DNA from: Singulisphaera sp. GP187
Lineage (GTDB): Bacteria; Planctomycetota; Planctomycetia; Gemmatales; Gemmataceae
Length of the DNA stretch: 48,632 nt
Assembly (NCBI GenBank): GCA_945861245.1
Contig: CAMAUE010000022.1
Coordinates: 1-48,632, forward strand
Direction of reading: 5' to 3'
Shown: one piece after another, positions 1 to 29,599 of the stretch
Position numbering within the stretch: the first letter of the stretch is position 1
How the letters are laid out: each line of letters begins with the position of its first letter
Made by a program: the position numbers and the translations under genes
The notes under the pieces: model-generated
The model's database searches: none
Told to the model about the DNA's origin: nothing
The model's input: the letters and a program-made list of their open reading frames with translations, nothing else

Positions 1-68
1 GGTTGGGCGGTGGCGATGCTCGTGCTCAGGAGCAGGGCGATTAACAGCGTGGTCATTTGGAATCGCAT
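1..68 (-). CDS. Serpin family protein, second tandem copy (5' end only)
   Basis: The first 22 codons of a minus-strand gene that runs off the left edge. The translation begins MRFQMTTLLIALLLSTSIAT, nearly identical to the signal peptide of the complete serpin starting at 1751 (MRTQMTTLLIALLLSTRIAT). The upstream DNA also matches that gene's upstream DNA over about 260 bp, including an AAGGA ribosome-binding site. I infer a second serpin gene from a tandem duplication. Only the signal peptide is visible, so the mature protein could differ. The start is the ATG at 68. Confidence 0.7.
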   Translation of the reverse strand, partial: MRFQMTTLLIALLLSTSIATAQ

Positions 69-25131: not shown

Positions 25132-25394
25132 ACATATTCGTAAAGATCATCCTTCGCCCAACGAACAAGTTAGCAGGGATGAACGTTTTCCTGTTGGCCT
25201 GCCCTCCGAAGGTATACAATGAAGGCGTATCGTATCGGCTGGCACGGATTTGTGGGGGTGTGCTGGTTCGTTCACTACGCGATATGCCTGCTTTGTCGAC
25301 ACTGCTGCTTGACAATAACTGAATGCGCCCGCAAAGTTGTGGAAAGTGTAAAGTAACGGAAATAAATCATCTACCGCACGGGCGAGAAACACGT
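25132..25394. other. Leader region of the channel/VWA gene set
   Basis: No coding frame is convincing. A TATACAAT box at 25213-25220 and a TTGACA at about 25309-25314 are possible promoter parts for the gene at 25395, but neither has a good partner at the right distance. Confidence 0.35.
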
Positions 25395-26264
25395 ATGGCG
25401 CAATCTTCCTCGCAAAAACCGACGCGCGAATGGCCGCTCTTGATTCTGACGATCTTCCTCGTTGGAGCCGTGGTCTATCCGCTCTGGACGACGTTCGGCG
25501 TAGAGCCGCCGGTGGCTGCTGATGGTGAAACGACCCTGGCGCGGAAACCTCGCTGGGCGCAGTTGCTACTTGGCCCTGAGCAAATCGCCTGTTATTGCTG
25601 CTTTGTCTGGGGATGCTTCATCTTCGTTGGCCGATTTGTGGAGACGATGCGACAGCGCCGAGCCTTCGGGCTTATCCTACTGCCGACCGACGACGGAGCA
25701 CGCATTCTTCCCGATGATGCACGCGGCTTGCAACGGCAGATCGATCATGCAACCAATGAGGAGCCGTACATTCTCGCAACCATGATTCGTGCAGGATTGG
25801 CCAAGCTTTCGCTCAGCCGCTCAGCTCAAGACGTGCGCGAGACGTTAAAAACGCAAGCCGATGTCGATCTCGGTCGGTTGATCTCTAGCATGGCGACCTT
25901 GAATTACCTCGCCTGGGCGATCCCAGCGATTGGCTTTTTCGGTACGGTTCGTGGGCTGGCAGGCAGCATGACGTTGGCGGGCGAAGGCGGTAAGCAGCTG
26001 GAACAGGCAACTAGGCACCTTACCGTCGCCTTCGATTGCACGTTGGTCGCGCTGGGCCTAAGCCTGATCGTAATGTTTCTGATTCATACGTTGCAGCGCG
26101 AGGAAGAATCACTGGTGATCGATTGCCAGCAGCATTGCCTGGACCATCTCGTCAATCGGATCTACGAACCGGAACTCGGCGCTGCGGCTGCCGGTGCGGA
26201 CTCGGCGGCGCAGGGGCCGGTCGGCATGATCGCAGGCACGTTGCCTGAAAGGGCGGCACGATGA
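25395..26264 (+). CDS. MotA/TolQ/ExbB-like proton channel protein
   Basis: 289 residues with about four membrane helices: near 14-32, 65-85, 168-190 (LNYLAWAIPAIGFFGTVRGL) and 215-237 (FDCTLVALGLSLIVMFLIH). The GFFGTVRGLAGSM run and the following TVAFDCTLVALG are the hallmark of the ExbB/TolQ/MotA family, whose pentamer carries protons beside a two-helix ExbD/TolR/MotB partner. The start is the ATG at 25395; the longer frame gives no plausible N-terminus. Its stop overlaps the next start by four bases (ATGA), so the two genes are translationally coupled. Confidence 0.85.
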   Translation: MAQSSSQKPTREWPLLILTIFLVGAVVYPLWTTFGVEPPVAADGETTLARKPRWAQLLLGPEQIACYCCFVWGCFIFVGRFVETMRQRRAFGLILLPTDDGARILPDDARGLQRQIDHATNEEPYILATMIRAGLAKLSLSRSAQDVRETLKTQADVDLGRLISSMATLNYLAWAIPAIGFFGTVRGLAGSMTLAGEGGKQLEQATRHLTVAFDCTLVALGLSLIVMFLIHTLQREEESLVIDCQQHCLDHLVNRIYEPELGAAAAGADSAAQGPVGMIAGTLPERAAR

Positions 26265-27778
26265 CATTGCTGGGGCTAGACTGGAATGCGACGCGCGTGC
26301 GCGCGGTGGTTGGCCCCGCTCGGGACTATCCGCTGCCGGCCTCGCTCGATGCGCCGCACGCTGAATTGGCGCTGGCATGCGACCTGCAACAGGTGAAGCC
26401 GGAACTTGGCGCGGCGGCTCTCGGCGTGAGTCGCGTTCGGCCCCGCACGATCTGCCAGGGTTTCCTACCGTACCTCGCTGTGGAAGCCGGACACGGCCCG
26501 CGTTGGCAGGCGGGGCGTAACGAACTCGATGCCCGCAGCGCCTGCGAAATGGTTTGGCGTCGTCTCCAACCTCTCGCAGCGTCCGCGCGCGGCGTGTTTA
26601 TGGTGACGCCGGGATACTTTCAACCCGCTCAAGCCGACACGTTACGGCGGATGGGCGAGTTAATCAAACTGCCGATTCTTGGTTCGCTGCCGACGCCTTT
26701 GGCGATTGCACTGGCGGGCCATCTCGAACAATTCTGGTCACGTTCGACGCTCGTGCTCGATGTCGATGAAGGCGCGCTCACGCTTGGCTGGGTCAAAGCC
26801 CTGGATGATCGCGCCCATTTGTTGGCGTGCCGGTCGTTCTCGCATCTCGGTCTGCGTTTCTGGCGGGATCGCCTCATCAATATGCTTTCGGATTTGTTCG
26901 TCTTCCAGCATCGGCGTGATCCTCGCGATGTGCCCGGCGCCGAGCAGAGTTTATTCGACCAGCTTGACGTGCTCGCCGACGCCGCACTGCAACGCCGAGC
27001 GATCCAGCTTGGCGTGCAGGGTCAGCAATGGTTCAAGCACTTGCTTGTGCATCCGGAGCAGACCTCACAGTTCTGCCAGGTACTTGTGAACAAAGCAGTC
27101 GCGGAAGTAGACGACTTAATGATGACGTGCCCGACGGGCGAGTCGCCGCGCGGCATTCTTCTCACGCACGAGGCTGGACGCCTGCCTGGCCTCGTCGAAG
27201 CGTTGCGTACACTCGTCCGACCCACCTTTGCGTCGGAGCCGCGGCGCGTCGTCGGAGGCGGATCCGAATTTCACGGTGATTTCGGCGACGAGCTCCTCTT
27301 TCACGAGGACGAACCGCGCGGCGTGTGGGTGCTTCCACCCGAGGCGCTTGCGCGATCGGCTCATTCGCTGGCGGAGTCTGCGCTTCAGGGTGTGATTCAG
27401 CGTGGCCATCTCGAAACCATCGTGCCAATCTCGGTTCCCCTGGCTGCGGATATCGGACCGCCGCGCTTGCATTTTCAGGGACGTGATTTTCTCCTTCGCG
27501 ATGCGAATTTCAATATCGGGACAAAGTTCGGGTGTCAGCTTTGGCTCGATCGGGCGGACCATCCCGATGTCGATGCCGTGCATTGCGAAATCGTTTACGA
27601 CCGCCGGGTCTATACCATGTACAACCACAGCCGCGATTGCACGCTGGTGAACGATCACCCCGTCACCGGTTCGGTTCTGCTACACGCCGGCGACCGCATC
27701 CGCCTCGGTCCGCGTGGCCCGCAGGCGCGGTTTCTCGGCAAGACGTTGCCGCGACCGGTCCATGCGGTCTTCGGGTGA
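26261..27778 (+). CDS. Hsp70-like (ASKHA) ATPase fused to an FHA-like domain
   Basis: 505 residues. The N-terminal part follows the Hsp70/actin ATPase plan: LLGLDWNATRVRAVVG like phosphate loop 1, GVFMVTPGYFQPAQADTLRR and LPILGSLPTPLAIALA like the Hsp70 ITVPAYF and NEPTAAALA segments, and STLVLDVDEGALTLGWV like phosphate loop 2. The acidic phosphate-loop residues are only partly kept, so hydrolysis is uncertain. The last 95 residues resemble FHA (NIGTKFGCQLWL, HCEIVYDRRVY, NDHPVTGSVLLHAGDRI), though the phosphothreonine-binding residues are not well conserved. The domain reading is by eye. It starts inside the previous gene's stop and probably regulates the channel/VWA machine. Confidence 0.65.
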   Translation: MTLLGLDWNATRVRAVVGPARDYPLPASLDAPHAELALACDLQQVKPELGAAALGVSRVRPRTICQGFLPYLAVEAGHGPRWQAGRNELDARSACEMVWRRLQPLAASARGVFMVTPGYFQPAQADTLRRMGELIKLPILGSLPTPLAIALAGHLEQFWSRSTLVLDVDEGALTLGWVKALDDRAHLLACRSFSHLGLRFWRDRLINMLSDLFVFQHRRDPRDVPGAEQSLFDQLDVLADAALQRRAIQLGVQGQQWFKHLLVHPEQTSQFCQVLVNKAVAEVDDLMMTCPTGESPRGILLTHEAGRLPGLVEALRTLVRPTFASEPRRVVGGGSEFHGDFGDELLFHEDEPRGVWVLPPEALARSAHSLAESALQGVIQRGHLETIVPISVPLAADIGPPRLHFQGRDFLLRDANFNIGTKFGCQLWLDRADHPDVDAVHCEIVYDRRVYTMYNHSRDCTLVNDHPVTGSVLLHAGDRIRLGPRGPQARFLGKTLPRPVHAVFG

Positions 27779-27789
27779 TTCACAATTTT

Positions 27790-27810
27790 CGCTTGCGGCT
27801 TAGCGCTCGC
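27790..27810. repeat. Orphan left arm of a family A palindrome
   Basis: CGCTTGCGGCTTAGCGCTCG without a matching right arm; downstream bases read caaggagcccacggg. It is the only half copy in the window and lies inside the three-gene set, just before the VWA gene. Confidence 0.8.
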
Positions 27811-27853
27811 AAGGAGCCCACGGGATCGATATTTTCAGTTTGGAGGGCCGGCC

Positions 27854-29599
27854 ATGCTCCTTCGCCATAAAGTGCCGACGATTTTCAATATCTACATGCT
27901 CGATGTTATCTGCTGCGCGCTCGGCTGCGTGATCTTACTTTGGCAGGTTGCCCATCAAGAGGCTTCCACGCAATCGCAAGAGGCGAAATCGCAGACCGCG
28001 AAAGCAATCTCGCAGGGCGACGCGGCTGTGCGGGCTCGTAGCAAGTACGAGAGGGCTCAGCGTGATTTCCTCGGTGCGTCGAGCGATGTCACGAATTTGC
28101 AGAACGCCCTCGCCGATTGGCAGAAGCGATACCGTGACATCGATGCCGCCTTGGCCGCTTTGACCAAGGATCGCGACGGCATTCAAATTCTCGCCGACGA
28201 TCGCCAGAAGACCCTCGATGCTAAGGCCAAATTGCTCGCGCTGAGCGAAGACGCCTACAAGAGACTGCAGGAGGATCTCGAACAGGCTCTCGCATCGTAC
28301 AAGAAAACGAAGGCAGACCTGACGGGTACCGTAAAACTCAATGCTGAGTTGTTGATCAAGTTCGGCATGGCCGAGAAGCAGGTGTCGCTCTTACGAGTGG
28401 AGTTACTGGAGAACAAGGCCGAGCTGGTGAATGCCGCCAAGAAATCGCAAGAACAGCTTGTGCAGATGAAGCTATCGCAGGACGACGCGAAGCGGCTGCA
28501 AGATTTGCTCAAGGCTCTGCAGCAGGAAAACGACAAGACGAAGAACAAGGTGCTCATCACCGAACTCTTGCTCAAAGTCAGCGACCAGAATCTTGAAGCG
28601 ATGCGGAAGGATCTCAAACTGGCACTGGTTTCGCGCGACCTCTTCGAGCAGAATCTTGACCTGACCCGGAAGGACCTGCAACTCGCCCTGGTGTCGCGCG
28701 ATCTGCTGCAAAAAAATCTCGACCTGACGAAGAAGGACTTGCAATTCGCGCTCGTGGCCAAAGATACGCTCAGCAAAGATCGTGAAGTCGGCGCCAAGGA
28801 CACACTTGCATTGCGTCAAACACTGGCGGCGGCGCAGGCCGAACGTGACTTGCTCAAGGATAAGCAGGCCAACATGCTAAAGGAACTTGCGATCGCTCGG
28901 AACGCAATCGGCACGTTTCGGCTTGACAAGGACATGCTCCGCCAGCGCATCGTCGATCTCGAGGCTGATCTCGAGCATCGCTTCGCCGGCGTGCCTTTGA
29001 CGGGCGAGAACGTCATCTTTCTCATCGACACCTCCGGCAGCATGGCGATGAAAGACCCCGATACCGAGGACCCCGACAAATGGCCGTTCTTGTGCGAAAC
29101 GCTTATGCAACTCATGAAAAGCGTGCGCTCCATGAAACGCTACCAGATCATTCTTTTTTCGGATAAGACAAGTTACTTGTTCGGCAAGCGCGGCGAATGG
29201 CTCGGATACGCCGGTGCGGATACCGCGATGATGGCACGGGATACGCTTCGCAAAGTCAAACCTGACGGCAACACGAACATGCACGACGCCTTTGACGAAG
29301 CATTCTCCTATCGCAAAAGCAAAGTCAAACTCGACACCATTTACCTCTTCTCCGACGGCCTGCCCAACGTCGGCCTCGGTATACCCGCCGACCTGGCCAA
29401 ATCTACCGAAGCCAAGCGGAGCTTCTATCTCAGCAAAGCAGTGCGCGAGAAATTAGCGTTTGACTGGAACCGCAAGGCCGACGATTCACCGCAGGTACGC
29501 ATCAACTCCGTCGGCTTTTTCTTCGAAAGCCCCGATGTCGGCGCGTTCCTCTGGGCCTTATCGCGCGAACACCGCGGCAGCTTCGTGGGGTTGCGCTAA
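27854..29599 (+). CDS. Membrane-anchored coiled-coil VWA protein, ExbD/MotB-like N-terminus
   Basis: 581 residues; the ATG at 27854 follows GGAGGG. The first 30 residues hold the only membrane helix, IFNIYMLDVICCALGCVILL, with Asp17 at the position where ExbD, TolR and MotB carry their proton-binding Asp (compare the N-x-x-P-x-I-D-V pattern). Residues about 33-370 form a long coiled coil with a 21-residue repeat (233-316). A C-terminal VWA domain has the metal motif DTSGS at 392-396, NTNMHDAF and LFSDGLPNVG. I infer that this is the D/R partner of the ExbB-like channel two genes upstream, with the VWA domain as effector outside the membrane. Its topology and function are untested. Confidence 0.72.
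   Translation: MLLRHKVPTIFNIYMLDVICCALGCVILLWQVAHQEASTQSQEAKSQTAKAISQGDAAVRARSKYERAQRDFLGASSDVTNLQNALADWQKRYRDIDAALAALTKDRDGIQILADDRQKTLDAKAKLLALSEDAYKRLQEDLEQALASYKKTKADLTGTVKLNAELLIKFGMAEKQVSLLRVELLENKAELVNAAKKSQEQLVQMKLSQDDAKRLQDLLKALQQENDKTKNKVLITELLLKVSDQNLEAMRKDLKLALVSRDLFEQNLDLTRKDLQLALVSRDLLQKNLDLTKKDLQFALVAKDTLSKDREVGAKDTLALRQTLAAAQAERDLLKDKQANMLKELAIARNAIGTFRLDKDMLRQRIVDLEADLEHRFAGVPLTGENVIFLIDTSGSMAMKDPDTEDPDKWPFLCETLMQLMKSVRSMKRYQIILFSDKTSYLFGKRGEWLGYAGADTAMMARDTLRKVKPDGNTNMHDAFDEAFSYRKSKVKLDTIYLFSDGLPNVGLGIPADLAKSTEAKRSFYLSKAVREKLAFDWNRKADDSPQVRINSVGFFFESPDVGAFLWALSREHRGSFVGLR
28550..28801 (+). repeat. Four 63-bp repeats coding 21-residue coiled-coil units
   Basis: Residues 233-253, 254-274, 275-295 and 296-316 align as LxLALVSRDLxxxNLDLTxKD units, three heptads each; the second and third are nearly identical and the first and fourth are degenerate. 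The pattern points to lengthening of the rod by unequal crossing-over. Confidence 0.85.

Follow-up and report, generated by a model that had tools for sequence, protein, structure and literature searches.

The window analysed here is a whole contig of 48,632 nucleotides (C22) from the 6.04-Mb genome of Singulisphaera sp. GP187, and our subject is a trio of genes in it, which encode an ExbB/TolQ-like channel subunit (gene 1), a protein resembling the nucleotide-binding domain (NBD) of Hsp70 (gene 2) and a coiled-coil protein with a VWA domain (gene 3). The features of the trio are as follows.

25395..26264, plus strand: gene 1, ExbB/TolQ-like channel subunit of 289 aa with an extra N-terminal hydrophobic helix (PF01618, AlphaFold2 model, TolQ fold)
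25770..26123, plus strand: MotA_ExbB domain of gene 1; Thr184 and Thr216 (counted from the 25395 start) are invariant (alignment)
26261..27778, plus strand: gene 2, Hsp70-NBD-like protein of 505 aa (profile and model matches to DnaK)
27515..27709, plus strand: degenerate FHA domain of gene 2 (PF00498; pocket Arg and Ser replaced)
27854..29599, plus strand: gene 3, one-helix coiled-coil VWA protein of 581 aa (Pfam, alignment)
27902..27904, plus strand: Asp17 codon of gene 3, in the N-terminal hydrophobic helix, NIYMLDV (Asp in 26 of 26 rows)
27956..28981, plus strand: coiled-coil rod of gene 3, 342 residues, proline-free (periodicity)
29009..29596, plus strand: VWA domain of gene 3 with the metal-ion-dependent adhesion site (MIDAS) residues D392, S394, S396, T474 and D501 (PF13519)

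The three open reading frames (ORFs) are present as a sequence-only reading of the window had described them, with the gene 1 stop and the gene 2 start overlapping in ATGA at 26261-26264; genes 2 and 3 are spaced by 75 bp. The gene 1 start at 25395 agrees with its homologues, and another in-frame ATG lies upstream at 25323.

Gene 1 is an ExbB/TolQ-type channel protein by both domain and fold, in line with the stator-type, ExbB/TolQ/MotA-like identity first read from it. It matches the Pfam MotA_ExbB model (PF01618) at E 4.7e-12, passing the Pfam cut-off, and the closest PDB fold to its AlphaFold2 model is TolQ (9avi, TMt 0.71, E 2.5e-4), with all 10 PDB matches at E ≤0.001 being TolQ or ExbB structures. 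Thr184 and Thr216 are invariant in the 25 aligned gene 1 proteins and correspond, in an alignment made by eye, to threonines of the canonical ExbB of the same genome. The N-terminal helix is an addition relative to ExbB and TolQ. The canonical ExbB is paired with its own ExbD on contig C123; the canonical ExbD genes lie away from the window and have the same Asp-in-helix layout as gene 3. No match to the ExbD/TolR model PF02472 was found in the genome outside contig C123, a model that divergent ExbD-like genes can escape (contig C230, by eye). On contig C230 (L140), an ExbB-family gene is followed by an ORF whose later part contains a helix with an Asp (FFIPLIDVLILLF) and a coil-like segment, and for which the ExbD Pfam model reports no match.

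Gene 3 combines a single hydrophobic helix (best window 10-28, containing Asp17), a proline-free rod of 342 residues with a 3.5-residue periodicity (z 4.0) and a VWA domain (VWA_2, PF13519, E 2.7e-8, over the cut-off), so that the helix, the coiled coil of about 330 residues and the VWA domain of the sequence-only reading are all recovered. The family alignment comprises 26 rows, a 27th (L057) having been dropped with its contig ending before the N-terminus. Asp17 is invariant in all 26, at a mean column identity of 30% over the whole alignment, and so are the five MIDAS residues. The rod of the window measures about 51 nm at full extension; across the rows its length ranges between 181 and 399 residues, with a median of 267, or 27-59 nm as one straight helix. 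Its profile hits on the coils of myosin, tropomyosin and SMC are of a kind that composition alone can yield. The segment N-terminal to the helix is more positively charged than the one C-terminal to it in 23 of the 26 rows, so an ExbD-like orientation fits, and gene 3 itself gives no match to PF02472 at E up to 1.

The conservation expected of the Asp holds in every aligned row but not in two VWA homologues outside the set, which lack the whole helix. One of these (G076, L072:6405-8411) is a single protein made up of a Ser/Thr kinase (PF00069, E 2.8e-52), a hydrophobic segment recognized by eye and a gene 3-family VWA domain, and its genome gave no strong match to gene 1 or gene 2; the hydrophobic segment between kinase and VWA fits an outward position of the VWA domain. 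The other (G002, L042:2373-3917) lies downstream of gene 3 as a second VWA gene of the family; its product has a long, acidic N-terminus, and another hydrophobic stretch takes the place of the Asp helix.

The profile of the gene 2 family covers residues 1-403 and matches DnaK at E 2.3e-15. The predicted model (pLDDT 86.5, pTM 0.80) matches DnaK in Foldseek at E 4.7e-23, with TM-scores to Hsp70 NBDs of up to 0.78 among the matches listed. Single-sequence matches to HscA/DnaK are weak (best E 2.7e-4), and the Pfam HSP70 model is matched singly by 2 of 25 homologues. The Hsp70 likeness noticed earlier thus stands, though as a whole Hsp70-type nucleotide-binding fold rather than as segments. No Hsp70 substrate-binding domain is found; beyond the NBD-like part lies an FHA domain or little else. 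An RxDxR motif (R218, D220, R222) is invariant across the family and forms its hallmark.

The residues that we take, from DnaK, to be the catalytic Thr and the phosphate-loop and adenosine-motif glycines are lost throughout the gene 2 family. In the DnaK-aligned Thr column, 23 homologues have Ala and 2 have Gly; the phosphate-loop glycine run is replaced in all 25, with Asp standing in each for the first glycine of the loop, and neither adenosine-motif glycine is present in any of the 25. Because of these losses, the label of ATPase given to gene 2 at first sight is not supported and an Hsp70-type ATPase is disfavoured; judged from its residues, gene 2 is probably without Hsp70-type ATPase activity.

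The FHA domain of gene 2 (PF00498, E 4.2e-9, residues 419-483) is indeed degenerate, since its pocket Arg and Ser, presumably the contacts to phosphothreonine, are both replaced; the two are retained in 2 of the 9 FHA-bearing homologues. With FHA found in just 9 of 25 homologues and no match in the other 16, the control function once assigned to this domain is not supported, and we rejected FHA as a general control part.

The three profiles were searched in 102 genomes of the order Gemmatales. Gene 3 was found in 92 (67 of the 71 good-quality ones), or in 91 net of the G076 kinase fusion, which is counted in both figures and is not the system. Gene 1 was matched in 99 at E 1e-20 or better, but in seven of these the sole match is weak (E 1.1e-26 to 1.5e-24) and falls on a different ExbB-like frame of greater length (451-605 residues), leaving 92. 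Gene 2 was found in 90 genomes and the complete trio in 88. All three genes are missing from eight genomes (G008, G019, G046, G088, G091, G092, G102 and G104), one has the kinase fusion alone (G076), and in five (G023, G042, G064, G068 and G109) one or two of the genes were found, in every case at the end of a contig.

In keeping with the sequence-only reading, the genes mostly stay together: 78 of the 88 complete trios lie on one contig, on the same strand and in the same order, with no more than 3,519 bases between the coordinates of genes 1 and 3. Separation is rare but real, and in seven trios it amounts to contig ends; gene 2 is split over the contigs bearing genes 1 and 3 in two (G056, G110), and a contig end intervenes in five (G059, G067, G086, G103 and G108, the last with gene 1 0.6 kb from the end). 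Since it recurs across an order, the trio is not a chance arrangement. Around it, no neighbour family occurs in more than 4 of 26 loci among mechanically called ORFs of at least 120 aa, a cut that misses short genes, and a fixed wider operon was therefore rejected. The trio of the window is flanked by what we take to be a DEAD-helicase-like ORF on one side and a 189-aa ORF on the other.

Relatives outside the order were sought with the gene 3 profile over 392 genomes drawn across the phylum, with at most 3 candidates scored per genome, and with the gene 1 profile (at most 6 candidates per genome), which led to more loci. At least 57 of the 392 genomes, the window's own among them, have a gene 3 match at E 1e-15; the match spans the N-terminal helix into the VWA domain in 4 of these (G135, G197, G215 and G230), and in 52 it covers the VWA part and omits the helix. 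Because so few candidates were scored per genome, absences outside the order are not firm; for example, the gene 3 relative L132 of genome G179 is missing from the matches of the gene 3 scan and was found via gene 1.

The loci include two groups, B and C, and one single locus, L120. In group B (L103-L106 and L132), a channel gene adjoins one Asp-coil-VWA gene, and no gene 2 match was found in any of the five loci, which points to the channel and the Asp-rod-VWA protein as the core pair. An FHA protein lies just upstream in four of the five, with a trypsin domain in three of those four; in L106 the upstream ORF is MazG/HD, and two nearby ORFs suspected to be kinases (L105, L132) are kinases by Pfam. 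In group C (L117-L119 and L122), two Asp-coil genes accompany a channel gene and a gene 2-like protein (gene 2 profile E 2.9e-28 to 5.9e-7). Pfam searches of two of these loci showed a VWA-like first Asp-coil partner, whose match reaches the cut-off in L117 and falls short of it in L122, and a second partner without any match; the gene 2-like protein has a sub-cut-off FHA match in L117 and none in L122. Locus L120 carries FHA-trypsin, Hsp70 (E 3.8e-9) plus FHA (E 5.2e-22), a channel, and an Asp-coil gene that matches DUF2135 below threshold instead of VWA, and kinase-like ORFs are seen nearby by eye only. The helix Asp is retained in all 14 checked proteins of groups B, C and L120.

Other loci repeat parts of this layout. 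In the Singulisphaera genome itself, a second ExbB-like gene (L063:4107-8357, contig C3) has two helix-plus-coil partners, one with the helix Asp and one without it by eye. A related channel gene with one or two helix-plus-coil genes is found in most of L063, L121 and L123-L136 except L132, L130 having the channel only. In the two-partner ExbB loci, gene 3 profile matches end before the VWA part and one partner lacks the Asp in several (by eye); no VWA was found in the L063 partner, the sole partner of these loci run on Pfam. Among plasmid records, neither gene 3 nor the L132 protein gave a match, and the L117 channel query gave three, including Rhizobium (L143) and Anabaena (L144). On Rhizobium leguminosarum plasmid pRlBT01d (L143, NZ_CP125637.1), PP2C, FHA, ExbB-like channel and Asp-coil genes stand in a row, with a Ser/Thr kinase gene adjoining on the opposite strand, and the coiled-coil protein keeps the helix Asp. 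On Anabaena cylindrica plasmid pANACY.03 (L144), a MotA/TolQ/ExbB gene lies closely downstream of type III-B CRISPR (cmr) genes, with one hypothetical gene between. In a tree of the channel proteins, group B, group C and the two-partner group E are each a single clade, and L120 joins L143 where long branches meet. Owing to its long branches, the tree does not decide which group is closest.

From these comparisons, the channel and the Asp-bearing rod look like the core, with VWA as one of several tips; FHA, kinase and pseudo-Hsp70 look like candidate recurring cytoplasmic parts. The trio may be one branch of a cross-phylum set of phosphorylation-gated envelope motors, driven by the proton motive force (pmf) and switched from the cytoplasmic side by FHA, Ser/Thr kinase and pseudo-Hsp70 parts, in which the phospho-reader would have decayed in Gemmatales and left the pseudo-Hsp70 alone to couple, so that the motor would be run through a dead chaperone fold; we regard this wider proposal as rather unlikely.

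For the trio itself, we consider it fairly probable that the three proteins form a proton-driven, envelope-spanning force machine in which gene 1 is the stator, gene 3 the Asp-bearing axle and force rod, and gene 2 a cytoplasmic pseudo-Hsp70 adaptor. Gene 1 would form a TolQ/ExbB-like pentamer in the inner membrane, and the N-terminal helices of a gene 3 dimer would sit in the channel pore in a 5:2 assembly, where Asp17 would carry the protons. Their flow would turn or push the gene 3 axle, which, unlike ExbD or TolR, would be the force rod itself; its coiled coil is envisaged to cross the periplasm and to hold out the metal-dependent VWA domain towards an outer-membrane, wall or surface partner. 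Gene 2, with its Hsp70 nucleotide-binding fold devoid of catalytic residues, may hold or gate the stator from inside, and we would guess that it does so on the cytoplasmic face of the channel. The Gemmatales are known for an enlarged, convoluted periplasm. If the proposal is right, an energised rod bridging tens of nanometres is widespread in this order, and a catalytically dead Hsp70 fold is tied to an ion-driven motor.

Several observations weigh against this proposal. The gene 1 family profile has no match among PDB sequences at E up to 1, which places gene 1 far from the solved motors, and the confidence of its model is moderate (pLDDT 77.6, pTM 0.65). In the channel tree, the Gemmatales rows are not recovered as a single clade (2 changes, weak support), and the branches of the canonical ExbB rows are very long. 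The 3.5-residue period exceeds z 3 in 19 of the 26 gene 3 rows, with a lowest z of 1.2, and three of the 26 fail the flank-charge check. The VWA domain is not tied to the motor, since it exists without the Asp helix in G076 and G002. The system is dispensable, given that eight of the 102 genomes lack all three genes and that two of these, G019 and G088, are listed as 100% complete. Lastly, three of the 88 trios are truly apart: the genes lie inside three separate long contigs in G027 (L054, L076 and L077), gene 3 is located elsewhere in G060, and in G011 the 2.2 kb after gene 1 are without gene 2, which is preceded by a different ORF. G027 could serve as a natural test of whether the trio functions without linkage.

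The nearest alternative is a sensor instead of a motor, in which the VWA rod would feel an outside ligand or load and alter the state of gene 2 via the channel, so that the signal runs inward and proton flow is a gate or a leak. The one kinase-VWA fusion of the order (G076) uses a gene 3-type VWA as its apparent input domain, FHA, kinase or PP2C genes stand beside several relatives, and gene 2 is more like a binding platform than an enzyme, all of which would suit a sensor. However, the conservation pattern of the Asp and Thr residues is that of pmf motors, no gene family accompanies the Gemmatales trio in more than 4 of 26 loci, and 16 of 25 gene 2 homologues give no FHA match; we therefore judge the sensor unlikely. 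A static envelope tether, in which channel fold and Asp have become relics and the VWA-bearing rod anchors the inner membrane to the wall or the outer membrane, would agree with the widely variable, spacer-like rod length and with ion flow being without direct evidence, but a relic Asp would hardly be kept in all 26 rows at such low mean identity, and we hold this explanation to be very improbable. A Zorya-like anti-phage defence system, which is similar in outline through the stator-type pair and long coiled coil of ZorAB, is least credible of all, since none of the three proteins matches any PADLOC family at E up to 1, as the earlier separation from Zorya implied, and the trio is wide through one order, without recurring neighbours, helicase or nuclease.

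The force machine proposed here shares with MotA-MotB and ZorA-ZorB the logic of a pentamer and an Asp-bearing dimer. The tip of the gene 3 axle differs from theirs in being a VWA domain and not a peptidoglycan-binding domain, and while Zorya carries its coiled coil on the channel protein ZorA, here the coil is on the axle. With ExbB-ExbD and TolQ-TolR, the trio has in common the channel fold and the layout of Thr and Asp; it differs in that the axle is a long rod with a VWA domain instead of a small periplasmic domain, and in that there is no TonB or TolA among the three. Gene 2 resembles the NBD of Hsp70/DnaK in fold and sequence profile, but has neither the substrate-binding domain nor the catalytic Thr and glycine motifs.

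The closest published counterpart is the family of TPH-vWA proteins, encoded beside tolQ-like genes without tolR/exbD, for which motors of a TolQ-like pentamer, an Asp-bearing helix and a vWA domain with direct force transduction were proposed with AlphaFold 3 models (PMC12204202, Mol Biol Evol 2025). The core motor-plus-VWA idea is thus already in print, and the sequence-only view of an undescribed system does not hold for it. According to the section of that paper on vWA motors, TPH-vWA proteins occur mostly as heterologous pairs and mostly in Proteobacteria and Verrucomicrobia; Planctomycetota are named there solely for its other vWA family, whose function is stated as unknown. The paper also describes tolQ with two tolR-like genes in the Planctomycetes-Verrucomicrobia-Chlamydiae (PVC) group, and its section 8 makes no mention of Hsp70 or FHA. 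In the literature searched, which was largely open-access and without preprints, no prior description of channel, Hsp70 and VWA together was found, and the core pair is described only in PMC12204202; the accessible text of PMC7159879 and PMC8195603 contains no ExbB or MotA term.

In PMC12204202, a TolQ-like gene is tightly linked to a vWA gene with an N-terminal helix Asp, and by architecture the window trio is a machine of this kind. The TolQ-like gene is close by, on the same contig and in the same order in 78 of 88 trios with gene 2 between; the cluster has no tolR/exbD, PF02472 being matched on contig C123 only, though divergent ExbD-like genes may escape it; the N-terminal helix Asp is conserved in 26 of 26 rows; and the C-terminal vWA fold is above the PF13519 cut-off. 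The heterologous vWA pair, predominant but not universal among TPH-vWA proteins, is replaced in the window by a single gene 3; relatives L117-L119 and L122 have two Asp-coil genes, with a Pfam VWA in the first only where tested (L117, L122). Compared with TPH-vWA, the trio is distinguished by a single long-coil axle and a pseudo-Hsp70 gene between, in Gemmatales. What is new here is this one long-rod axle, the pseudo-Hsp70 partner, the near-core status in one order and the relatives beside FHA, kinase or trypsin genes. Collectively, these findings extend the TPH-vWA idea, as far as PMC12204202 sets it out in its account of vWA motors, to Planctomycetota and add a constant third partner, which opens the question of coupling to genetics in cultured Gemmata.

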